From a candidate division FCPU426 bacterium (GTDB lineage Bacteria; Oederibacteriota; Muellerivitia; Muellerivitales; Muellerivitaceae), in assembly GCA_030041545.1 (NCBI GenBank), contig JASHNQ010000041.1, forward strand, positions 1-64,000: a DNA stretch of 64,000 nucleotides, written 5' to 3'. Under the pieces are notes generated by a model that was not told the origin of the DNA, made no database searches, and worked only from the letters and a program-made list of their open reading frames with translations. Positions within the stretch are counted from its first letter, which is position 1. Each line of letters begins with the position of its first letter. Position numbers and translations under genes: made by a program. Shown piece after piece: positions 41,038 to 56,289 of this stretch.

Positions 41038-41469
41038 ATGGACATCCATATCAACTTTTGGGCCGTGCTGTTGGCGGCGGCAGCCTATTTCTTGATTGGT
41101 TGGCTTTGGTATTCGGCTCTTTTCGGCAAGATGTTCATGAAACTGACCGGGATGGATAAGCTGAGCAAGAGGGAAAAGGAAAAAATGATGAAAGCGGCCA
41201 TGCCCTCATTCGGCATGGCTTTCGCGGCCTCGCTGCTAACCGCTTATTGCCTGGCCCATTCGGTCGTATCGGGCGCCAGCTTCTACCACGTTTCCGGCGC
41301 GCCGGCGGGGCTCATGGCGGGTTTCTGGACCTGGCTCGGCTTCCTTGTGACCACCCATTTGAACGCCGTACTCTGGGACCGGCAACCCTTGAAACTTTAT
41401 TTTCTCCACATGGGCTACTACCTGGTTTCCTTCCTGGTGATGGGGATGATTTTGGCTCTCATGCCCTGA
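41038..41469 (+). CDS. DUF1761 membrane protein
   Basis: A 143-aa integral membrane protein with four expected segments. The family pattern is visible: IGWLWYSALFGKMFMKLTG near the N-terminus, then a cytoplasmic Lys-rich loop, then the AGFWTWLGFLVTTHLNAVLWDRQP block. Function unknown. AGGGGAGGG precedes the ATG. Confidence 0.88.
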   Translation: MDIHINFWAVLLAAAAYFLIGWLWYSALFGKMFMKLTGMDKLSKREKEKMMKAAMPSFGMAFAASLLTAYCLAHSVVSGASFYHVSGAPAGLMAGFWTWLGFLVTTHLNAVLWDRQPLKLYFLHMGYYLVSFLVMGMILALMP

Positions 41470-41510
41470 CGGCGGCAGATAGGGGTGGATGGTGGCGAAG
41501 TAAGTATATT

Positions 41511-41624
41511 TCAGTGCAAAACCACGGCTTGGATGACCTGCCGCCCGAGCAAGCCGTTACCAGAGTAACTTTCCACCACCGCCAGGTAAACGCCGCTGGC
41601 GAACGTAGTCAACCCCGGGTGAAT
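41511..41624 (-). pseudogene. Remnant of a VLH-ending C-terminal sorting-like domain
   Basis: Read on the minus strand, this stretch encodes [20 protein letters not shown] and then RQVIQAVVLH before a TGA. It closely matches, at protein and DNA level, the end of the 763-aa protein at 51449 ([29 protein letters not shown]). The rest of that domain is absent. The relic starts directly after the stop codon of the small secreted gene at 41625 and is in the same frame. No start codon of its own, so it is a fragment left by recombination or deletion. Confidence 0.8.
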
Positions 41625-42026
41625 TCATAATGAAGACTCATTGCTTTGTAGAATTTGGTTCAATTGGTTTTTTTGGTCGGCGGTGATTTCTTTCTGGCCG
41701 TTTTGGTGGAAGAACTCTTTTTCTTGTTGGCGGATCGCTTTTAAATTTTCCCATGCCGCTTTAGCTTGTTCCTTGGTGATTTTGCCGGTCTTCAAATCCT
41801 TTTGGATTTGCCTCATCTGGGCCCTTACCTGGGCATTCACACTTCGCATGTTCGAACCTATGGAAGACGCATTTGCATTGGCCGATTTACCGAACCCAGC
41901 AATCGGAACATGGACCACCGGCATGGGCGTTCCCGCCTGGCCCGTTCCAACCGTTTTATTCTGCGCCCATGACGCCCCCCCACAAAGCAAAACAACCGAA
42001 GTCGAAAAAGCCATGAATCTATTCAT
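41625..42026 (-). CDS. Small secreted helical protein, copy A
   Basis: A 133-aa protein with a signal peptide (about residues 1-21, ending SWAQ). A Gly/Ser/Val-rich stretch follows, then a helical core of about 75 residues: QMRQIQKDLKTGKITKEQAK, AAWENLKAIRQQEKEFF, QNGQKEITADQKNQLNQIL. The protein from 55939-56289 has the same core (about two thirds identical). Each lies directly downstream of a giant propeller gene, here 28 bp away. GGGAGA precedes ATG 42026. It resembles in style the short periplasmic LTxxQ/Spy-like helical proteins but is not one I can name. Perhaps a partner or chaperone of the giant protein. Confidence 0.7.
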   Translation of the reverse strand: MNRFMAFSTSVVLLCGGASWAQNKTVGTGQAGTPMPVVHVPIAGFGKSANANASSIGSNMRSVNAQVRAQMRQIQKDLKTGKITKEQAKAAWENLKAIRQQEKEFFHQNGQKEITADQKNQLNQILQSNESSL

Positions 42027-42054
42027 CACTTTTCTCCCAGAAACACGGTTTGGG

Positions 42055-45000
42055 TCAATGTAATACCACCACTTTGCCGATCTTGATGGCCGTATTGCCC
42101 TCCTCGTTCTCTATCCGCAGGGCATAGATATAGAGTCCACTGGCAACATTCGCCCCACCCTGGTTTTGCAGCGGCCAAACAAGTTTATTGGAACCCGTAT
42201 TGCCCTCGATTGCAGCGCTGTAAACCTGTTCGCCTACCAAACTATAGATGGAAAGGCGAATCCACGCCGGCTGTTCAAGGCTAAGCAGGAACTGGATAGG
42301 CTCTCCTTCCCTGGAAACATTAGGAACCGCCACCACACTCCCAATATCGGCCGCCACAGCTGTTGAGGTGCCAGGGCCCCTGTAAGCCATGGCAGAAATT
42401 ATTTCTTGATTCGGACCTCCGACCAACGTCGGAGTAAAGGTGGGAGTTTTTGTGGCTGTCGATGTAGGCGTTTTTGTGGCGGTCAAAGTCAAGGTTTTCG
42501 TCGCCGTACTAGTGGGCGTGTTGGTTTTAGTCAAAGTTGGAGTAGCGGTAAATGTGGCGGTCTTGGTGGGTGTAAAAGTTGGAGTCAAGGTTGTGGTTTT
42601 GGTAACCGTATAAGTGGGGGTATTCGTGAAAGTATAGGTCAAAGTGAGCGTACTCGTGGTTGTCTTGGTAGCCGTGTAAGTCGGCGTGCTCGTGGTCGTC
42701 TTGGTGGCAGTGTAAGTCGGTGTACTTGTAGTTGTTTTGGTCGGCGTGTTCGTGAGGGTAGCTGTGGGGGTGGAAGTTGGCGTCGAGGTCGGATATGGCG
42801 CACCTAGCGTGTATTCCACCACCCAGCCCTTGCCATTACTATCAATAAACGCAACATAGGGTGTTCCTCCAGAGAACGCCAGCGTTGAACTATAACTATC
42901 AGTGGTCCCGTAGCTTCCTCCCACCGTCGTCCATCCACTGCCGTTATATTCCACCACCCAGCCTTTTCCGGAACTGTCGGAGAAAGACACATAAGGGGTT
43001 GTGCCGGACAATGCCAACGAGGGGCTTTCATTGGTGGAGGTATCGAGCGTCCCATAACTGCCGCCCAAGGTAACCCAGGTGCTCCCATTTAAGGTCACCG
43101 TCCAGCCCTTATCATTGCTGTCGGGGAAGGCCACGTAGGGCGTGGTTCCCGACAGCGCAAGGGAAGGGCTTACGGCAGTGTAAAGAGTTCCGTAACTTCC
43201 GCCTATGGTCCCCCATGCATCGTTTCCTATAGTTACCGCCCAGCCCTTATCACTGGAGTCCTGGAAGGCGACAAAAGGCGTGCTGCCGGAAAAAGCCAGC
43301 GAGGGACTGGAATAGTTATACAGTGTCCCAAAATAACCCGGGCCTGGAATGCTAATCTGCCCCTCACTCGACCCATTCGTAAAAGCCCATTCGGGAGTTC
43401 CATTTGAGAAAGCTAATGAAGGGCTTGTATAAGCATATAGGCCGCTTCCGCTGGATACCGTATTCCATGAGTTTCCGGTATAGTCATAAACTTCAAGGGT
43501 TCCAGCCAAGGTTGCGGAAGCGGCATAGAGGGTAACGCCGGAGAATCCCAAAGAAAAGCTGCTTTCGGCGTAGATGAAACCGAAAGGACTTCCAACCGTC
43601 ACCCAAGCGCTGCCGTTGTATTGTTCCACCAAACCCTCGGTGTTTGGATAAGCGGAGAAGCCCACGTAAGGCGTTGTCCCCGTAACGGCTAAACCCGGCC
43701 CCAATAATGTATCTACGCAATTGCCAAAAGAGGCTCCCCCCACCGTCACCCATTCATATACTTCTCCTGTCGGAGTAAAAGTGGCCGTGAAGGTGGGAGT
43801 AAAGGTTGGGGAAAGAGTGGGGGTAGGTGTTTGGGTATAGCTTGGCGTCAACGTGAAGGTTGAGGTGGGTGTTAGAGTAAAGGTAGGTGTCATGGTCGGG
43901 CTTAGGGCGGGACAGCCATTGGCCCATTGGAATTCGTCCAATTGCTGGTTGACAGCATCCCCCACGAGCCAATATCCGCTCCCCGTGGCGATTCCCTGGG
44001 TGGAGCCAAAAGGCGTGGTTCCAGATCCCTGGACAAAACCCAGGATATCCCCCATTTCATCGAAAATTCCCACGGTTCCAAAGCCGTCGGAAACATATAC
44101 GTAACTATTGGAGTCCACAGCCACGAAGTTCGCCGCCAAGAGGGGAGTTCCCGCCGTGGCGTCCCATTGGGTGATGACGGAGGCATAGTTACCGCTCATG
44201 GGGTTAGTCCCCAAGGTGAAAACCTGGACCAAACCCGTATCCGAATTCCCGACGTAAACGTTCCCGGAGGCATCCAAGGCAACTCCCGCCGGAGTCCCGA
44301 AAATCCCATATCCAAAGTTGCCGGGCTGCCATTGGAATAAAAGAGTGCCCGAACCATTGTATTCCTGCACGGTTTGGTTCCCGCTGTTGGTGACGAAAAC
44401 GGTTGTTCCAGAGGAATTTGACGTCACCGCGATACCGTAGGGCGAGCTGAAGTTGTCGGCGGGGTTGCTGGAGGCGCCCCAGGTGGCGATAGGAGTGGCC
44501 TGGGGATTGAAGATGACCACGGCGTTTTGGGTTGCGTCGGTGACGTAAATATTCTCGCTGGCATCCAACGCCACGCCCACCGGCAGGGTCAACGCACCGG
44601 TCCCAATGGAGGTTTGGTAGGTCCCCTGCGAATTATAAAGGTTCACTACAGCGTCCATGGGGTCCACGACGTAAATATTTCCCGATGGGTCCAACGTAAT
44701 CCCCGAGGGAGCATACGTATCCACGTTTGGAATTTGGGCGGGAATGGCGGTGGCGGAACACAAGATCGGCGTTGGTGTGTTGTTCAGAGTCGGTGTAATC
44801 GTGGGGGTCCAGGTGGGGGCCATGGTGGCTACACAGAGGCCGTATCTTACGATTCGGCTGTTCCCTGTATCCGAAACAAAGATGTCCCCGGAGGCATCCA
44901 TGGCGACGCCTTGGGGATTGTTGAATTGGCCGTTGCCAGAGCCTTGGGTGCCCCAGGCCGCAAGAAATACTTGACTGGGATTGAACTCTTGTATTCGGTT

Positions 45001-48000
45001 GTTCCCCGAATCGGCGACGTAAATATTCCCATAGGCGTCCAGCCCCACAGCGGAAGGAGCGACAAACAAACCATTTGAACTGCCGTTCGAACCCCAATAA
45101 GTAACGGGAGTTCCAGCGTTAGTAAATTTATCGATTTGGTCATTCCCCGAATCAGCGACATATACGTTTCCAGCCGGGTCCAAGGCTATCCCAAAGGGTT
45201 TGTCCAATAATTGGGAACCATTGCCGGTGGCCGTCCATGTGGCTACCGGCGTTCCATCGGGGTTGAGTTTTTGGATGCGGTTATTCCCCGTGTCGGAAAC
45301 AAAGACATTGTCGCCCGAATCAACAGCCACACCCTGCGGATATTGGAATTGTCCCGGATTGCCGCCCTGCTGGCCTATTTGGGTGATATAGGTGCCCCCG
45401 GAAGTGAGCTTAACGATCCGGCTGTTCCCCGAATCGGCGACATAAATATTGGCCTTGGAATCAAGGGCGACATCAAAAGGATTATTGAAATTTGTTTCAC
45501 CGTCCCCCTGGCTCCCAAAAAGGCTGATGAAGTCGCCGTTGATGTCGAATATTTGTACCCGGTCGTTCACGTTGTCGGCGACGTAAACATAGGTGTTCGG
45601 GCCCCCAACCGCTATCCCTTCATTGGTGTTGAATTGGCCCCCTGTCGCTCCGTTTCCCGACCAGGAACCAAGCCAAGCGGTACAAGCCGGTGTCGGGGTG
45701 AGGCTGGGGCTCAAGGTTCCCGTGGGGGAAAAAGTAGGCGTAAGGGTCGGGGTGGAACTTGGTGTATAGGTGGGGGTGGGGGTTTTGGTGAAACTGGCGT
45801 TGGGTGTCGGGGTGATGGTAGGCGTCCAGGTGCCGGTATACGTCGGGGCGGGATATCCGCAAGGAGGCGCCGTGGTGGTGCAAAGGGAATATTTGATAAT
45901 CCGGTTGTTCCTTATATCCACGGCAAAAAGGTCCCCATAGGCGTCCACATCAAAACCCGTTAAAAGGGTATTTGACGGACTGGGGGCCATAAACCCGTAA
46001 AGGAATTGTCCTTCGTTCGTGAACTTGTTGATTTGGGGGTATTGGAAGCTGCTGGGGGTGTTGACATATACCGAACCCAAAGAATCAGTCCTCATGTAAT
46101 AGGGGGCACCATAGGTGGTGCCAAAGCTGGAATTGCCGATGTTGGATAACCAAACCGAGTCTTGAGAGGCTCCCGGTTGGTTTCCTAAGAACTTATAAAC
46201 CTTACTATTCACTATATCATCGACAAAAACATTATCGTTGTTATCAACGGCTATCGAAAACGCGTCCCCGTAGGATGTACCGTAAGTGATCGAAACAGCG
46301 GCTACCCCTCCGGTAATGTTGATCATGGCCGCTTCACTACTTAAGGCCGAGTAAAGATTGCCATCGTAATCCGTGTCAAGGCCCCCCAACCCTCCCAATT
46401 GGGACAGATTCAAGGTCGTTTGGAGCGTTCCGTTTGAGTTATAAATGTCGCCGTTCGAGAGATAGATAAGGCTACCGTCCTTGCTCAGGCCCATATAACT
46501 TGGGCCCGATCCGCCGGGAGGGTAACCGGTTTTTGAAACGGGCCATTGGGTGAGATAATTACCGCAGGAGTCGAATTTCTGGATCCTGGAATTCCCCGCA
46601 TCGAAAACATAAACATTTCCGTTGGGATCGACCCTTAAATCACTTCCATATTGCGCATTAGGTGGGGCTTGTGAATTGAACTCGAACTGGCCGTTGCCCG
46701 TGCCCGTCGTGCCCCATTGGGCTGTTATTTGGTAACACTCCACCTGGATTTGGATGTTCGTGGTGGCGGCGGTTATATCCCCATTGCTGTCGGTTTCGCT
46801 GACTGCGATGACGTAATTTCCCGCCGGCAGGAAAGTTCCGGCGCTGCTTCTCCCATCGAATTGGACGCCTTGCGAGCCTATACTTTGGTTTTGGCCGTTG
46901 ACCAGGGTCCTGACGACATTTGATCCGCTATACACTTGGACGGTTACGCTTCCTGACCCCGTCAAATCGTAAGTGACGGAAACGGGTATAGAACTGTTTG
47001 TGGCGGGAAGGACGTATAGCACCGGCGGTGCGGTTAAGTCTTCAATAGGTGGTTCGTAAGAAAATTCCGTAAGCCTCTCGAATTCCGTGGTCCATATTTG
47101 ATTATAGGAATAGACTTCGTTACTTGAATTAAAGGATTTATCGATCGCCACGCTTCGCAAGTATTGGAAAGGAGAAAGAGGGTAACCATTAGAAGCGGTA
47201 AGAAAATTTAAATTCTGATCTAAAACATAAACCTCATTGTTGGTAACATCCGTCGCGTAAATCCTTCCACTTAAATCACTATCCAAAGAAGTAAAGGAGG
47301 GGTTGGGCCCCATTTGCGTCTGAGGCGGGATTGTCTTAATTAAGTTTCCTGATGAATCAAATTTCGCGATATTTCCGGTAGTGTCGGCGACATAAATGCT
47401 GCCGTCCACATAACTCACGGTTATTCCAAGAGGTGTTCCAAAAGGCGACCCATAAAACTCTCCAATACAATTCGTAGGTTCGGATTGATTGTTTGGGCCG
47501 CTGGGTGTCATGAATGAATTGACTGGATTACCATTGGAATCGAACTTCTGTATCCTATTGTTCCCTGAATCAGCCACGTATATATCCCCGCTCGAATCCA
47601 AAGCGATTCCGGTAGGCGAAATAAATTGGCCTGGCGCATAACCATACGACCCGAACTCAGAAACGTAACTCACGTTATTCGCGTTATAGGAAAGCTGGAC
47701 TATTTGATTGTTACCCGAATCAACGACATAAATTTGGCCACTGCTTCGGGCGGCTATTCCCCGGGGGTTTGAAAAGTTGTGGTCGTAAGAATTAAAACCG
47801 TAGGCGTTTGCGGAAGTATCCCAAGCCCTCCACACGATCCGGTTCGCATAAGAATCACAAACCAAGACGCTGGGGAAGACGGCCCATTCGGAAGGCGCAG
47901 GGTCGCTTAGAAATTTTGTTGCCGCAAGCCCGGAAAGGCTGTCATATAGCACATCTGTGGACGGAAGATTGTAATCGGACTGGTAGGTCGAATTGTCCGT

Positions 48001-48096
48001 AAACTGCAAAAACTCAAAGGATTGTTGGGCCCTCAAGGGCGAGAAACTTTCCAGCAAATAAAGTGCAATAAAGTAATAAATTACTTTCTTTGCCAT
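42055..48096 (-). CDS. Giant secreted NHL-propeller / Pro-Thr-linker protein A
   Basis: About 2013 aa. Signal peptide at residues 1-24 (cleavage near LRAQ). NHL-type beta-propeller repeats fill about residues 60-750, 800-1090 and 1110-1395, with the repeating pattern ALDSSGDIYVADSGNNRIQ. A FlgD-like beta-sandwich (GTFLPAGNYVIAVSE) interrupts near residue 420. Pro/Thr-rich linkers lie at about 752-800, 1089-1112, 1395-1442 and 1769-1889. Between the last two is a different propeller built on GTTPYVAFSDSSGKGWVVEY. The last 120 residues form a beta-sandwich ending SGLYIYALRIENEEGN and KIGKVVVLH. Likely displayed on the surface as an adhesin or matrix protein. The start (ATG 48096; GTG 48108 also possible) has no clear Shine-Dalgarno site. 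Confidence 0.88.
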   Translation of the reverse strand: MAKKVIYYFIALYLLESFSPLRAQQSFEFLQFTDNSTYQSDYNLPSTDVLYDSLSGLAATKFLSDPAPSEWAVFPSVLVCDSYANRIVWRAWDTSANAYGFNSYDHNFSNPRGIAARSSGQIYVVDSGNNQIVQLSYNANNVSYVSEFGSYGYAPGQFISPTGIALDSSGDIYVADSGNNRIQKFDSNGNPVNSFMTPSGPNNQSEPTNCIGEFYGSPFGTPLGITVSYVDGSIYVADTTGNIAKFDSSGNLIKTIPPQTQMGPNPSFTSLDSDLSGRIYATDVTNNEVYVLDQNLNFLTASNGYPLSPFQYLRSVAIDKSFNSSNEVYSYNQIWTTEFERLTEFSYEPPIEDLTAPPVLYVLPATNSSIPVSVTYDLTGSGSVTVQVYSGSNVVRTLVNGQNQSIGSQGVQFDGRSSAGTFLPAGNYVIAVSETDSNGDITAATTNIQIQVECYQITAQWGTTGTGNGQFEFNSQAPPNAQYGSDLRVDPNGNVYVFDAGNSRIQKFDSCGNYLTQWPVSKTGYPPGGSGPSYMGLSKDGSLIYLSNGDIYNSNGTLQTTLNLSQLGGLGGLDTDYDGNLYSALSSEAAMINITGGVAAVSITYGTSYGDAFSIAVDNNDNVFVDDIVNSKVYKFLGNQPGASQDSVWLSNIGNSSFGTTYGAPYYMRTDSLGSVYVNTPSSFQYPQINKFTNEGQFLYGFMAPSPSNTLLTGFDVDAYGDLFAVDIRNNRIIKYSLCTTTAPPCGYPAPTYTGTWTPTITPTPNASFTKTPTPTYTPSSTPTLTPTFSPTGTLSPSLTPTPACTAWLGSWSGNGATGGQFNTNEGIAVGGPNTYVYVADNVNDRVQIFDINGDFISLFGSQGDGETNFNNPFDVALDSKANIYVADSGNSRIVKLTSGGTYITQIGQQGGNPGQFQYPQGVAVDSGDNVFVSDTGNNRIQKLNPDGTPVATWTATGNGSQLLDKPFGIALDPAGNVYVADSGNDQIDKFTNAGTPVTYWGSNGSSNGLFVAPSAVGLDAYGNIYVADSGNNRIQEFNPSQVFLAAWGTQGSGNGQFNNPQGVAMDASGDIFVSDTGNSRIVRYGLCVATMAPTWTPTITPTLNNTPTPILCSATAIPAQIPNVDTYAPSGITLDPSGNIYVVDPMDAVVNLYNSQGTYQTSIGTGALTLPVGVALDASENIYVTDATQNAVVIFNPQATPIATWGASSNPADNFSSPYGIAVTSNSSGTTVFVTNSGNQTVQEYNGSGTLLFQWQPGNFGYGIFGTPAGVALDASGNVYVGNSDTGLVQVFTLGTNPMSGNYASVITQWDATAGTPLLAANFVAVDSNSYVYVSDGFGTVGIFDEMGDILGFVQGSGTTPFGSTQGIATGSGYWLVGDAVNQQLDEFQWANGCPALSPTMTPTFTLTPTSTFTLTPSYTQTPTPTLSPTFTPTFTATFTPTGEVYEWVTVGGASFGNCVDTLLGPGLAVTGTTPYVGFSAYPNTEGLVEQYNGSAWVTVGSPFGFIYAESSFSLGFSGVTLYAASATLAGTLEVYDYTGNSWNTVSSGSGLYAYTSPSLAFSNGTPEWAFTNGSSEGQISIPGPGYFGTLYNYSSPSLAFSGSTPFVAFQDSSDKGWAVTIGNDAWGTIGGSYGTLYTAVSPSLALSGTTPYVAFPDSNDKGWTVTLNGSTWVTLGGSYGTLDTSTNESPSLALSGTTPYVSFSDSSGKGWVVEYNGSGWTTVGGSYGTTDSYSSTLAFSGGTPYVAFIDSNGKGWVVEYTLGAPYPTSTPTSTPTATLTNTPTKTTTSTPTYTATKTTTSTPTYTATKTTTSTLTLTYTFTNTPTYTVTKTTTLTPTFTPTKTATFTATPTLTKTNTPTSTATKTLTLTATKTPTSTATKTPTFTPTLVGGPNQEIISAMAYRGPGTSTAVAADIGSVVAVPNVSREGEPIQFLLSLEQPAWIRLSIYSLVGEQVYSAAIEGNTGSNKLVWPLQNQGGANVASGLYIYALRIENEEGNTAIKIGKVVVLH

Positions 48097-48198
48097 ACTT
48101 GTCGCCACTTTCAGGGTCCGTTTGTTATTTGGTTAAAGTTGATAAATGCCTTGGTTTATTTCTCCACTGAGTTGTTATTAATCTTCAATGAACTTTTT

Positions 48199-49272
48199 TT
48201 ATTTTTGATCGTCGATCATTTTGATTTTTTGTTGAACCCGATTAATATTTCCAGTTTCTTGGTTCATTTCAGCGGCAAAAGCCTCTTTATGTTGTTTAAT
48301 GAATGATTCCCCCTTTTCTTTGGTCAAATTGACGGGGGGAGGGCCATTAAGAAAAGGAGTTTCCATAGTTTTGATTCGGATTATCCAGTTTTCATAATTC
48401 GTAACAGCTTTTTCATAAAACGAACGCGCCTCATCAATTTTCCCGTCTGTAATTAACAGGTCTCCGACGGACTCATAACTTCTCGCCAAATTTTCACTCC
48501 AGAGAAGTTTTCCATTTTCACTTACCGCTTCGTCGTAGTTACCCATTTCAACGTCAATGGCTTGTAACATTTGAGGGCTGACGATTGCCCCCATTTTTGA
48601 TCTTGTCCTCGCCGTAGACAAAGCCATACCCCAATCACCTTTTTCCACTTGAGCGTTCAGTTCAAGAAATTGGGCGTAATGAGTGTGGGCGCTGTCGCCT
48701 TTTTTCAATAAGAGGGTGTTATTGAGCACTAGAAAATGATTCCGGGCGTAATAGGCGTCCTTTTCACCGTTAAAGAAAGTAAATATGAAATAATCCTCTC
48801 CTACGACATCCGAATAATCGCGTTCAACGGTTTTGACTCCCCAAAGAAAACGCGGAGGACACAAAGGGAGGGGCGCGAGGAAATGGCCATTCCAAACAAA
48901 ATCATCCAGCGATACGCCTCCGTAGGATATTGTCGCGAGGACGAATTCCAGTGTTTTTTTATCCTTATCTTGGTAGTAAAAACCACTTGGCTCGATCACT
49001 CCGCCGGTGTTTTTTCCTTTCGGATTTTTCCCCATTACATATACACGGTTGCATGGAAACGAGTACATTGGCTTTCCGGGCGGATAAAAGGCCACCTCTA
49101 GGGAGTTTCTAAAAGCAAAGAATTTTGCCTTGGTGCCGTCCGGAGAGGTAAATTCGACCGGGGTTCCTTTGGAATCTATTACGGCATTTTCCATCGGTGG
49201 TTCTTCACCAAGACTTAATTGGAAACAGGCAAAGCACAACAGAAAAACTGGGAAAAAGCTTTTAATTCCCAT
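48199..49272 (-). CDS. Secreted protein with TPR-like C-terminal half
   Basis: A 357-aa protein with a signal peptide (residues 1-22, SLGEE). The N-terminal half is beta-rich and unrecognised (about 30-190). The C-terminal half is helical with TPR-like pairs (LARSYESVGDLLITDGKIDE, ARSFYEKAVTNYENW). Its ATG lies inside the end of the upstream gene (11-bp overlap). It is 102 bp before the giant protein gene on the same strand, so it may belong to the same transcript. DNA is AT-rich compared with flanks. Function unknown. Confidence 0.65.
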   Translation of the reverse strand: MGIKSFFPVFLLCFACFQLSLGEEPPMENAVIDSKGTPVEFTSPDGTKAKFFAFRNSLEVAFYPPGKPMYSFPCNRVYVMGKNPKGKNTGGVIEPSGFYYQDKDKKTLEFVLATISYGGVSLDDFVWNGHFLAPLPLCPPRFLWGVKTVERDYSDVVGEDYFIFTFFNGEKDAYYARNHFLVLNNTLLLKKGDSAHTHYAQFLELNAQVEKGDWGMALSTARTRSKMGAIVSPQMLQAIDVEMGNYDEAVSENGKLLWSENLARSYESVGDLLITDGKIDEARSFYEKAVTNYENWIIRIKTMETPFLNGPPPVNLTKEKGESFIKQHKEAFAAEMNQETGNINRVQQKIKMIDDQK

Positions 49273-50376
49273 CCGAAAACCTCCAATAAACGAAATTATT
49301 TGAAATTACGTTTTCGCAAGGGCTTGATGGTGAATAACCACTCCAAAGCGCCGTTTCAGCCATATCGGATAGTTCGAACGCGTTTGTCGGTGTGACATAT
49401 GTAGTATCCCCAGTATTCCAATAGTTAATAGAAAGTGGAGCAGCGCCAAAAACATAATCATCGATATCAAACGTTTGCGAGGTTCCATTCGGAAAAGAGT
49501 TATAGGCAATTGAAGCGGCGGCTGTAAAGGTGTAACCGCCAAAGTCAAATGTATAAGAACCGCCTACGAAAGAAAGTTGCTGGACTACAACGCTGGTCGA
49601 ACAAAGGGGAGTGCTTTGGTCACTTGAAGAGATATAGTTAAGACCAACAAAGGGGGAGGGACAAATCCCTCTCCCACATTGAGGAGTAAAAGGATCATCT
49701 TGGTCACCCCAGGTTCCAGTATTACTACAACCTCCAAGCGTACCAGCGTAACCTGTATCACCATCCGGGCAGTTCCCAACTATTGGATTTCCATCTTGAT
49801 CAACGCCGACATATATGGGGCCTTCGGGTCTTATTTGGGTCACTTGCGGATTGAACCAAACATAATAAGCGTTCGACCCATAGAGGTTGACGAAACTATT
49901 ACCGGAAGGCATCGAAAGCATTGCCGAGACCGCCTCTTGGGCATCTTGATTATTAACTGATTCAGGGTAGTAGGTAAAATTCGCCTTAGAATTTGATAAT
50001 GTCAGCGTGCAACCAGCGGAAGGAATCGGGGTGGCATTAATTTGTGCATGTGTATCCGACGAGTAGACGATTAAATATGTAAAGGTTCCTGAATTAATTC
50101 CAGTGACCGCATTTCCATATTGGTCCTCTACGGTTACATTGACATTAACCGGAGTTGATTGGGCCACGACGTTCACACCGTCGCCGGTTGTAATGGATAT
50201 TGCCACGACTGTTGGAGCTGGTGGACCTAAATTAGGTGTAGGCGCTGGCGGAACAGATGGCTGTTGAGGAAGTTTCTCAAGGGGATCTGAGCATAACCCC
50301 CCATCAAACTCATCGAGATCAATACAATAAAAAACCAAAAAACGTAATAAGTAACGGGGGTTTTAACTTTTTTCAT
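49262..50376 (-). pseudogene. Secreted Ig-like/invasin-type protein with a frame break after the signal peptide
   Basis: The ATG at 50376 overlaps the previous stop (ATGA) and opens a signal peptide (KKVKTPVTYYVFWFFIVLI, then SMSLMGGYAQIP). That frame stops after 54 codons. The remaining roughly 340 residues lie in another frame: a Pro-rich lead (QQPSVPPAPTPNLGPP), then an Ig-like/invasin domain (VNVNVTVEDQYGNAVTG) and a Cys-containing strand-rich region. A one-base change near GATCCCC or the G run at about 50280-50305 would join AQIP to LEKLPQQP. The gene is either freshly broken or carries an assembly error. Its end overlaps the next gene. Confidence 0.7.
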
Positions 50377-50933
50377 TTTTGTCCAGAAGAATTTTTCAAG
50401 TAAAATTTTGGTGTTAATTTTGAATAATTATTTTTGAATTTTTCCCACATCAAAATGCAATCGGCTTTTTCGGCGAGTGAGAGAGACCTTTTGGACGACA
50501 ACTTCCAAGCGCTATAAGTGCCATAAGCAAGAGTTTTGACGGTCAGGTCGTCATTGGAACCCTGATGAAGGATTTCCCGGGCCGTCGCAAAGGAATCCTC
50601 ATATTGACCGTCGACCGTCTGAATCTGAACCAGCCTGTGGCCGGCTTTAATCTTCAAATAAGGATTTTTTGTGTTGGTGTAGGCTTGCCGGTAATAACTA
50701 ATAGCTTCTTTTTTATGCCCAAGATAAAAATGGCATTCAGCAATCCTAAAATTTAGATTACAAGTGTCCTCATTTGAGGAACTTTGCCCCAAAAGTGATT
50801 GATACTGATTGAGCGCTTGGTTGTATTTTCTAGCTTGAAAGGCCTGGTCTGCTGCGGAGGCGGAAAACGCATTTAAGTGGGCCGCCAAAAGAAAAATGGC
50901 TATTAAGCAGATAATATTTTTGTGGAAGTTCAT
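50373..50933 (-). CDS. Secreted TPR-repeat protein
   Basis: A 186-aa protein with a signal peptide (MNFHKNIICLIAIFLLAAH, ending near SASA). TPR-like units follow: AFQARKYNQALNQYQSLL, NLNFRIAECHFYLGHKKEAI and ISYYRQAYTNTKNPYLKIKA. ATG 50933 has GGGGGG upstream and fits the signal peptide; the longer frame to 51011 is rejected. The stop overlaps the next gene by ATGA. It is the first gene of the AT-rich group; the 515 bp upstream (to 51448) are AT-rich and non-coding and should hold the promoter. Confidence 0.75.
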   Translation of the reverse strand: MNFHKNIICLIAIFLLAAHLNAFSASAADQAFQARKYNQALNQYQSLLGQSSSNEDTCNLNFRIAECHFYLGHKKEAISYYRQAYTNTKNPYLKIKAGHRLVQIQTVDGQYEDSFATAREILHQGSNDDLTVKTLAYGTYSAWKLSSKRSLSLAEKADCILMWEKFKNNYSKLTPKFYLKNSSGQK

Positions 50934-51448
50934 GAACCCCCCAAATTTAAAAAGACGATGAACTGGACGCTTCTCGTAAACAGACGTGATGAAGTATTTT
51001 GAACGAAGCATGGAATGGTGAAGAGGTGTGAAATGGAGTAATCTTAGCCGTGATTCAAATATCGATCAAATAATTATTCGTTAATTTAATGTTACATTAT
51101 GACCCGGAACATATTCCTAATAATTTTTTAACCTGAAAACAATTTTATTCGCGGTCTTTTATCAGCGGGTCAATAAACGGTCAGTAATTGGGCTACTTTG
51201 AGAATGTCAAATAAATAAGATTTTATTCGGTATGGCTGGTAATTATTCCGGTTGTTTGTGGCGCAAGTAGTTCATTTTTATCGATTCTAATCCTCGGTGC
51301 CTGCCGCTGACTGCCACAACAAAAAAGGCCCAATTCGGAAAAATCCTTCCGGCAGGACTCTTGAAATCCTCTTTAGCCACATTCTCCAGGCCGCTATCCA
51401 AGGATACGAAACCACCTCGTAAGTTCCAAAGGGCACAACCCCTCTTTT
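50934..51448. other. AT-rich non-coding gap upstream of the secreted-protein group
   Basis: About 515 bp without a credible gene between two minus-strand genes. TTGACA occurs on the minus strand at 51210-51205, but no good -10 box follows at 17 bp, so I do not call a promoter. The sequence is much AT-richer than the region beyond 51.4 kb. Confidence 0.45.
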
Positions 51449-53740
51449 TTAATGTAAAACCACAACCTGTAGGACCTGCCTCCCGACCAAGCCGTTGGCC
51501 GAGTAGCTTTCCACCACCGCCAGGTAGGCGCCGCTGGCGATGGCTTCCCCCCCCAAGTTCCACGTCACCACCCCGGGGTTCCCGGGCTGGCTGGTGAGGG
51601 TCTTGAACCATTCCCCGGCCAGCGTGTAAATCTTGACCTTCGCGGACGTCACCTGCCCTGAGTAGGTATTGACCAGGAAAGCGGCCTGGGAAACCTGGTT
51701 CAAGTTCACCGGGTTCGGGGCCAGCACCGCGCCCTGGACGCCTCCCCTCCCGTTGTTCACCACGTGCACCGTTAAAACCACTTCTTGGTCCGGTTCGTTG
51801 GGTTGGGCGGACTGGAATTCCATGAAATAGTTCCCCGGGGTCAGGAAAGCGCCGTTGCTCCCGGTCCCGTTCCAGGTGATGCTTTGCCCCGATCCCAAGG
51901 TGATCGTCAAGAAGCTCCCGTTTCCGCCCTGCGGGGAGGGGGCCAGGGTATTGGAGGAAAGCCGCGCGGCCTCCACGTTGAAATCCGCCGCCTGCAGCGC
52001 CGCGTTGGCCCCCAGGAGGCCCTGGATCTGCGCCTCGCTCCACTGTTGAACCGCCTCCCCGGCCCCGTTGTACACGGTGATTTGCAGGTTGCTGTTCCCC
52101 AGGATCACGGTGACGGTTTTCGTGACGGTGGTGGCCACGCCATCGGGATCGACACTGGTGGTCTTGATGAAATAGGTGCCGTTGGTCACCTTCTGGCCGC
52201 TGGAATTCGTGGCGTTCCAGGCCCCCAAGGTGACGCCGTTGTCCAGGACCAGGGCCTCCTGTGAATCGGTTTGGATCGTCCCGTTCACCAGGGTCCAATT
52301 GGTGAGCGCGGATCCGAACTGGAAGTCGGACAAAGTTTCAATCAGTTCCCCGGCCTGGTTGTAAACCGCCACGCTGACGGTATAAGGCCCTCCCACCGTG
52401 ACGGTGTCGGAAGCGCAGGTTTGCCACCCCTCAAAACTCACGCAGGCGTTGTTCACCAGGTTGTAGCCCCCACCCGACCCCGTTTGCACCTGCACTTGAA
52501 GAACATAGGTTTCCGTCACGGCTGCGTCCGGGGCCAGGGAAGCCACGTTCCACGCCAGGCTGTTGGCGGAGGCGCTGTAAACCCCGCCGTTGGAGGCCGA
52601 ACCGGCCACATAGGATTCCTGGGAAGCGGGCGGCAGGTTGTCCGTGATGACCGCGCTGGGCAGGGTAACCGCCTCATGGTTGGTATAGACCAGGGTATAG
52701 GTGACCTCGTCCAGGGGTTGGGCGTTGGTTTCGGAGGAACTTTTCGCCAGGCTCACAAAGGGCGTGGGAGTGGAGGTGGGGGTCTCGGTGAAGGTGTTGG
52801 TCGGGGTGTTGGTGGGGGTTGGCGTATCCGTGGCGGTGAAAGTGTTCGTGGGCGTGGAAGTGGCCGTAAGGGTGGGGGTATTCGTAGGCGTGAACGTGGG
52901 GGTCCGGGTTGGGGTGTTCGTCGGGGTGCTGGTGGGAGTCAAAGTGTCTGTGACCGTGAAGGTGTCAGTGGGCGTGGAGGTGGCCGTAAGGGTGGGGGTG
53001 TTCGTGGCCGTGAAGGTGTTGGTGGGTGTGCTGGTGGGGGTCGAGGTATCCGTGACGGTGAAGGTGGGGGTGGGGGTGGAGGTAGCGGTGAACGTGGCGG
53101 TGTTCGTGGGGGTAAAGCTGTCCGTGGGCGTCGGCGTATTGGTGGGGGTGGCCGTGGGAGTCGGCGTATCCGTGACGGTGAAGGTGTCGGTGGGAGTCGG
53201 GGTGGGCGTCAGGGTGGCCGTCGGGGTGGGGGTGTCGGTGTTCGTCGGTGTGCCGGTCGCGGTGGGGGTGGAAGTGGGCGTGCCGGTGGGGGTGTTGGTG
53301 GCCGTGTTGGTCGGGCAGACGACTGAAATCGTCACCGGGTTGGTGTTCAGCGTCTCCAAGGGCGACCCCACGTCGATGGAGGAAACGTCGATCACTTGGG
53401 GATCGGCGCAGGAGTTGACGGCGACGAAAAAGGTCACGTGTCCCGACGTGCCCGATGGGACGGTTCCCAGGTCCCAAACGATCTCCCCCGAATTATCCGA
53501 GCAGGGCGCTCCCGAGCAGGAAACGTAAGTGAACTCCGCGGGAAGGGTGTCCACGATGGTGGTGTCGTCCCACGTGCTTCCCGTGTCGTTGTCGTAAGTG
53601 ATGATGAACCCGACGGTGGTGCCGGCGCTTACTTGGGCCCGGGCCGCGGAAACCGCCGCGAAAAAAAGCAGCCCGCAAACCCAGCCGGTTTTTCGAAGGG
53701 CCGCCGGGAAATAAACCTTCCAAAAAAATTTTGATCCCAT
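51449..53740 (-). CDS. Secreted DUF11-like / Pro-Thr-linker protein with VLH C-terminus
   Basis: A 763-aa protein from ATG 53740 (an ATG 36 bp earlier, 53776, is less fitting). Signal peptide ends at SAARAQ. Residues about 35-140 form a DUF11-like beta-sandwich ([31 protein letters not shown]). A Pro/Thr-rich linker of nearly 190 residues follows (about 140-327). Then comes a second DUF11-like domain ([19 protein letters not shown]) and FlgD-like sandwiches ([20 protein letters not shown]). The final domain ([19 protein letters not shown], ending QVVVLH) is shared in style with the two giant proteins. Likely exported and surface attached. Confidence 0.85.
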
Positions 53741-53984
53741 AAAAGAAATGAGCCCCGTAAGAATGTCATCCGACATCGTTTTCTAATGATACCACCCAAG
53801 CGCTACGCCCCCTGTTACCATCCCCTCCCTAACGGCAATTTAGGCATGAATCACAAATCTTTTTTTAGGGCGTTATCCCCGGCTGGAGAGAGGGTTCCCT
53901 GGGGATGTTAATAAAACCGCTTTTAGGTTCGATGCGGCACCACCTGAAAACGGTTTTAAATTGAGACACTACCGGCCCCCGGCG

Positions 53985-54428
53985 TCACCCTTGGGCCTTC
54001 TTTTGATCGATCAGGTATTCGGCGATGAGATCCACGTCGCCTTTGTGGATGGCCAAAGTCTGGATGCCGGCCTGGAAGAGGGTTTTTCCCATTTCCATGG
54101 TGGTTTCCACGTGCCGGATTTCCGCCAGGAACTTCAGGCTAGCCTTGTAATTGGGCAGGTGCAGGGCCACTTCCAGGACGGTTCCCACCTTCAGGGGGTT
54201 CTGGCTCACCAAGGCCAGCCCGCCCATGGAAATATCCTTGGTAACGGCCTTGTAAAGGGACGATTTTTCGGAGAGCTTGGGAAGGTGGTCCACGGTGGTC
54301 TGGCTGTAGTTTTCGTGCGAAAGGAGCTTCTGCGCTTCCCGGCCCTCCACGATCGAGTATTCCATCTTTAAGGTGGCCAGGACCCGTTCGAAACGGCGTT
54401 TTTCCACCCATCCCGATTTCTTGTCCAT
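53985..54428 (-). CDS. PilZ-domain protein, copy 2
   Basis: A 147-aa PilZ protein. R11-x3-R15 (RRFER) and D65-x-S-x-x-G70 (DISMGG) are both kept, so it should bind cyclic di-GMP. Between them is an insert of about 35 residues (LSHENYSQTTVDHLPKLSEK), longer than usual. GGGGGAG precedes ATG 54428. No linked effector gene; it may act on surface display or motility. Confidence 0.85.
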   Translation of the reverse strand: MDKKSGWVEKRRFERVLATLKMEYSIVEGREAQKLLSHENYSQTTVDHLPKLSEKSSLYKAVTKDISMGGLALVSQNPLKVGTVLEVALHLPNYKASLKFLAEIRHVETTMEMGKTLFQAGIQTLAIHKGDVDLIAEYLIDQKKAQG

Positions 54429-54530
54429 TTCTCCCCCACGTCCAAAAAGGTCGTCCGAGAAAAAACCACCAGGGCAAGATAGCAGAGAAATCCGCGGCCT
54501 CAAAGGGTGAATCCGGGATGGCTGTCTTGG

Positions 54531-55188
54531 TCATTCCGATGGAAGAAAGGCCCGGTTTTCGCTCAGGCCCAAAAGGGCGCAAGCGGCCAGAACCAGGGCA
54601 GTTCCCAACATGAAAGGGGGCGTGAGGGATTCGCCCAGCAGCACCCATCCGAAAAATGCCGTCACCACCGGCACCAACAGGGAAAGCAAGGTTCCCGCGG
54701 CCAGGCTGGCGTAGCCGTAGCCTTGGGTGAACAGAAGTTGAGCCGTCATGGCGGTCAAGCCCATGGCCAAAAGCACCGCCGATCCAGGGGCCTCCAAACC
54801 CCTCCAGGCCATCCACGAAGCCTTACCCATCCAGGGTCCCGCCAGGAGAAAAAAGCCGGAGATAAGGAAGCCGAATAGGGAAAAACTGGCGAAGACGGTC
54901 AAGGCGTTGTCCGTGCGGCGGGCTTCCTTGGGGGCCAAAACCGCGGCCCCGGCGGTCATGCCGGAAAGCACGCCGGGGAGATCGCCCCATTCCCAGCGGC
55001 CCCACCTCGCGCCCAGGACCAGCCAAATCCCCACGAGGGCCAGGAGGAGCGAATAGGCGAACCCCTTGGGGGGCTTTCGCTTGAGGAGAAGTGCGTCGAA
55101 GACGTTGGCCCAAATGGAATAGGTGTAATTGAAGAGGGTGGCCTTGGCGGCCGTGGTGAACTGGAGGGTCAGGAAAAAGAAAAATCAT
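54531..55188 (-). pseudogene. 5'-truncated EamA/DMT-family transporter
   Basis: The readable frame encodes the later part of an EamA carrier: TTAAKATLFNYTYSIWANVF, then the second five-helix repeat (SLFGFLISGFFLL, LLSLLVPVVTAFFGWVLLGE). Roughly the first two membrane helices are missing. The frame runs back to the stop codon of the HAD gene without a start. An ATG overlapping that stop (ATGA, 55188) is in a different frame and would need a one-base shift within a T-rich run after five codons. A GTG at 55034 gives only 167 aa. Either a relic or a frame error; function lost as written. Confidence 0.6.
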
Positions 55189-55938: not shown

Positions 55939-56289
55939 TTAAATGGAGCCGGTATTTTGGCTTAAGGTTTGTTCCAACTGGGTCTTCTGCTCCGGGGTGA
56001 TTTCCTTCTGGCCGTTCTGCTTGAAAAACTCCAGTTCCTGCCGGCGGACGTTCTTCAGGTTTTCCCAGGCCGCCTGCGCCTGGGCCTTGGTGATCTTTCC
56101 CGCTTTCAAATCCTTCGGGATTTGCCGCATCTGCTGGCGCAGGACAATATTGACCGAATGGATGTTTGAATTCGACACTGCCACTCGCGTAGATGCCTTA
56201 TTGGACCCCGCCGTTTTAACCTGGGCCTGGACCGACGCTACCAGTCCAACCAGTAAAACCAGTAATAGGCAGCTCTTATGAACTTTCAT
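55939..56289 (-). CDS. Small secreted helical protein, copy B
   Basis: A 116-aa paralogue of the protein at 41625. Signal peptide residues 1-22 (VASVQAQ). Core QMRQIPKDLKAGKITKAQAQ, AAWENLKNVRRQELEFF, QNGQKEITPEQKTQLEQTL. It lies 50 bp downstream of the second giant propeller gene, repeating the arrangement at 41.6-48.1 kb. AGGGGG precedes the ATG. The two helices joined by GKIT and the QNGQKEIT block look like a conserved interaction surface. Function unknown. Confidence 0.7.
   Translation of the reverse strand: MKVHKSCLLLVLLVGLVASVQAQVKTAGSNKASTRVAVSNSNIHSVNIVLRQQMRQIPKDLKAGKITKAQAQAAWENLKNVRRQELEFFKQNGQKEITPEQKTQLEQTLSQNTGSI

Follow-up and report, generated by a model that had tools for sequence, protein, structure and literature searches.

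The locus and its orphan gene tail

The window analysed here is a stretch of 64,000 nucleotides from the genome of a candidate division FCPU426 bacterium. It contains a series of minus-strand genes between a DUF1761 gene and a PilZ gene, among them a small and a large gene for secreted proteins (small gene B and large gene B) and an intact gene of 775 codons (Table 1), referred to below as the 775 gene. The 763-aa protein described in the initial annotation is this same open reading frame, read from its second ATG. A further small gene (A) sits downstream of a 2446-aa paralogue of the large protein. The EamA transporter gene (54531-55188, minus strand) lacks about 80 N-terminal residues compared with its counterpart in a relative of the same genus (214 vs 295 aa); by this comparison it is probably a pseudogene.

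Table 1. Features of the locus, in window coordinates.
Feature	Position	Strand	Remarks
DUF1761 gene	41038..41469	plus	conserved left flank of the insertion
Orphan gene tail (stub)	41511..41624	minus	37 codons and stop; the final 30 codons share homology with the 775-aa protein's C-terminus
Small secreted protein gene B	41625..42029	minus	133-134 aa; its TGA directly precedes the tail
Large secreted protein B, NHL-repeat/Thr-Pro-repeat	42055..48108	minus	2017 aa; own VLH-ending C-terminal domain
TPR protein	48199..49272	minus	357 aa, low GC; a search of eight other genomes found no homologue
Protein of no known family	49262..50338	minus	358 aa; no homologue in 44 other genomes of the phylum
TPR protein	50373..51011	minus	212 aa, low GC
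Intact DUF11/FlgD_ig protein	51449..53776	minus	775 aa, or 763 aa from the second ATG; GC3 82%
PilZ gene	53985..54431	minus	conserved flank on the right; three relatives have it immediately next to DUF1761, in convergent orientation
Small secreted protein A	55939..56289	minus	paralogue of B; ends in TAA, without tail

Directly 3' of the TGA of small gene B, 37 codons continue in the same frame and end in AVVLH (translation of 41511-42020, minus strand). The initial annotation had noticed this tail and its likeness to the C-terminus of the 763-aa protein, and both were confirmed. A blastn comparison within the window aligned the stub with 51447-51540 (minus strand), the 3' end of the 775-codon frame, with 78 of 94 bases identical (83%), no gaps, and E=2e-23. 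The match runs through the stop codon of the stub. The local alignment score was 60, whereas none of 2000 shuffles exceeded 19. Clear homology spans about 41509-41603, and the 5' neighbour of this homologous part is small gene B; the first seven codons after the TGA show no clear homology to the 775 gene. The stub has two features of a gene remnant: significant homology to a part of an intact gene, with the 5' part missing. Of a FlgD/CHU_C-like C-terminal domain, it covers only the final 30 residues. The frame shared with small gene B is a matter of chance (1 in 3).

Among the 32 recognisable tails in the genome, the 775 tail is the closest to the stub, with 83% identity at the protein level (62% for the next best tail). 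The stub is also the only one of the 32 that is not part of a longer frame and does not lie close to a contig end, and no second orphan tail was found among them. Three other candidates were rejected: the tails on contigs C69 and C16 are both at contig ends, and the tail on C109 belongs to a frameshifted gene. In favour of a misjoin at similar tails during assembly, the genome is split into 115 contigs and a number of the other tails lie near contig ends. However, the longest exact run common to the stub and the 775 tail is 20 bp, which is too short for a usual assembly overlap, and the join is internal to a 96-kb contig. An assembly artefact is therefore improbable.

The stop codon and the C-terminal domain

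The initial annotation had also raised, as its less likely option, that read-through of the TGA might attach a sorting tail to the small protein and so alter its localisation. The 37 codons are in frame and open, and the tail residues are conserved. Against this, 20 small-protein homologues taken from this genome and its family have their stops, a mixture of TAA, TGA, and TAG, at almost identical columns, and a tail behind the stop codon was found in none of the 19 others (0/19). The mixed stops at nearly the same column, with a tail only here, indicate that the TGA is the family's own stop. No stimulating RNA structure was found around the TGA, where the fold z-score was an unremarkable -0.16, and the region has no Rfam match. 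The peptide of the stub alone matches no Pfam model, and a functional sorting tail was rejected because the stub is a partial domain. Read-through found no support in these results and is very improbable. A possible false annotation (read-through, or a sorting tail added to the small protein) is thereby removed. The search for a terminator role of the stub also found none.

The label of sorting domain is itself uncertain. As judged by profile scores, the tails resemble FlgD_ig/CHU_C only weakly: the intact tails scored 19.9-23.3 bits with CHU_C and 12.8 bits with Por_Secre_tail, neither reaching the curated cut-off of 27. SprA_N, which belongs to the T9SS translocon protein SprA and was the only T9SS part sought, had no match in this genome (98.5% complete), nor in 14 control genomes.

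A lineage-specific segment between DUF1761 and PilZ

The gene order was compared with one relative of the same genus (G001) and two of the same family (G003 and G005). All three have the order MDH, DUF1761, and then immediately the convergent PilZ; beyond PilZ lie EamA, HAD, and small and large genes, in varying sets. In this genome the gap between DUF1761 and PilZ is 12.5 kb; its left end is occupied by the stub and its right end by the 775 gene. Neither a stub nor an intact separate gene was found at the DUF1761/PilZ locus in the three relatives. This comparison, which the initial annotation had proposed, supports its preferred reading of the stub as a recombination scar: a lineage-specific block, missing in the relatives, has the stub at one of its ends.

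From the stub to the intact 775 tail extends a 9.8-kb block of low GC content. GC3 is 37-57% in the five genes between them, compared with 82% in the 775 gene, 84% in MDH, 82% in HAD, 76% in PilZ, and 75% in DUF1761. Two proteins of the block are without homologues in the genomes searched (Table 1), and no recombinase or integrase was recognised by Pfam among its proteins. The gene 3' end is present on both sides of the block, at 41509-41602 and 51447-51540. The coincidence of the low-GC block with the interval between the tails is as expected if the block was joined at the tail. The pattern of G/C versus A/T differences switches inside the tail (permutation p=0.04), which gives a weak indication of a crossover there.

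The locus is a mosaic, jointed at the ends of genes. The last ~510 bp of large gene B are 81% identical to contig C96, and this match ends at the stop codon. The match of small gene B and its leader to contig C4 (84% DNA identity) starts right after the stop of large gene B. The joint, where the best matches switch contigs, lies at 42052-42057.

Related copies elsewhere in the genome are in different states of decay. On contig C4, a small-gene copy (L039:9552-9950), with 84% DNA identity to small gene B, has a Trp codon changed to TGA. It adjoins glycerate kinase and acetyl-CoA synthetase, where relatives carry the best 775 homologue. Two neighbouring TPR ORFs (L039:9985-11526) share a 99-residue C-terminus with 78% identity, and the shorter one looks, from this similarity, like another partial 3' duplicate. 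On contig C109, an NHL-repeat large gene (L183:7899-9272) is frameshifted, and its C-terminal domain is 80% DNA-identical to that of large gene B. The best homologues of the 775 gene in G001 and G005 adjoin glycerate kinase and acetyl-CoA synthetase; in this genome, the corresponding site holds the small-gene pseudogene and TPR genes. If these homologues are orthologous to it, the arrangement is suggestive of a relocation of the 775 gene.

Origin of the stub and comparison with known systems

The stub and the 775 tail differ at 16 of 90 coding bases, nine of them at third positions. The six amino-acid changes are all conservative, and about ten changes would be expected under neutrality (P about 0.01). 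For neutral change of one copy, the probability falls to 0.0007 when the conservative character is also required; a half-neutral history of the divergence is compatible with the data (0.11). The conservative changes thus speak against a target-site duplication followed by purely neutral decay (P about 0.01). From this substitution pattern, the stub probably belonged to a working gene during much of the time over which the copies diverged. A simple target duplication fits the constrained substitutions less well than the arrival of a diverged tail or the deletion of a paralogue.

The sequence comparisons make it very probable that the stub is a recombination scar rather than a functional extension; as a scar, it is an ordinary one. 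The stub is very probably a non-functional leftover, made up of the stop codon and the 30 codons before it from a surface-protein gene of the 775-aa family, and stranded at one end of the 12.5-kb DUF1761-PilZ segment specific to this lineage. We infer the mechanism of its formation as follows. The 775 gene may have recombined at its conserved 3' end and so been joined to the low-GC block, which consists of small gene B, large gene B, the two TPR genes, and the 358-aa orphan. The other copy of the tail would have been left on the far side of the block, beside the stop of small gene B. Joining at the tail of the 775 gene, as the specific step, is a plausible but tentative proposal. The join between small gene B and the stub counts against it, having no recognisable homology to explain it, and so does the lack of a Pfam-recognised recombinase among the proteins of the block.

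The same scar would be left if a complete second 775-like gene had stood in tandem between small gene B and DUF1761 and had then been deleted except for the 30 codons at its end. Such a deletion, a version of the scar reading that differs in the event alone, is a serious possibility. Genes of the family lie in tandem, 5-10 kb apart, on contigs C20 and C66 of G003, and the constrained substitutions fit a tail that was long part of a functional gene. Decayed copies are also common (the small gene with a stop on C4, the frameshifted large gene on C109, the truncated EamA). However, the deletion requires a second gene never seen at the locus, and it leaves unexplained the low-GC block that fills the interval between the stub and the 775 tail. 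Joining at the tail is slightly favoured by composition.

It is conceivable, although unlikely, that the conserved C-terminal tails of the large surface-protein family are recurrent recombination points in FCPU426 genomes, at which blocks of secreted-protein genes enter and are reshuffled, with tail stubs as their footprints. The locus provides one synteny-placed example of secreted repeat-protein loci being rebuilt in an uncultured phylum, and has little wider consequence unless such a pattern is general.

In bacterial arrays of tandem paralogues, ordinary gene remnants are short, start-less 3' fragments of a paralogue near an intact copy. The stub resembles them in all these respects, but it bounds a lineage-specific low-GC block. 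Integrative elements duplicate a gene 3' end as the att site, so that two copies flank the inserted block. Two copies of a gene 3' end also flank the inserted block here; however, they are only 83% alike, and Pfam identified no integrase in the block.

The closest described situation is that of CDI genes, whose 3' remnants are displaced (PMC6336857). In CDI/Rhs loci, such displaced 3' ends, lying downstream of a gene, are regarded as likely reserves (PMC6336857). By this analogy, the stub, which is the closest tail to that of the 775 gene, might be maintained so that it can donate sequence to the 775 C-terminus by gene conversion or exchange. Such a role is highly doubtful, given that the stub has just 30 codons, differs conservatively, lacks a partner gene, and is the only such stub in the genome. 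Unlike the orphan cdiA-CT and rhs tip fragments (PMC6336857), the stub has no toxin/immunity gene or variable tip, and the leftover is the conserved tail. Like them, it would be a start-less 3'-terminal piece of a surface-protein gene, lying downstream of the intact gene after the arrival of new DNA at that gene's 3' end.
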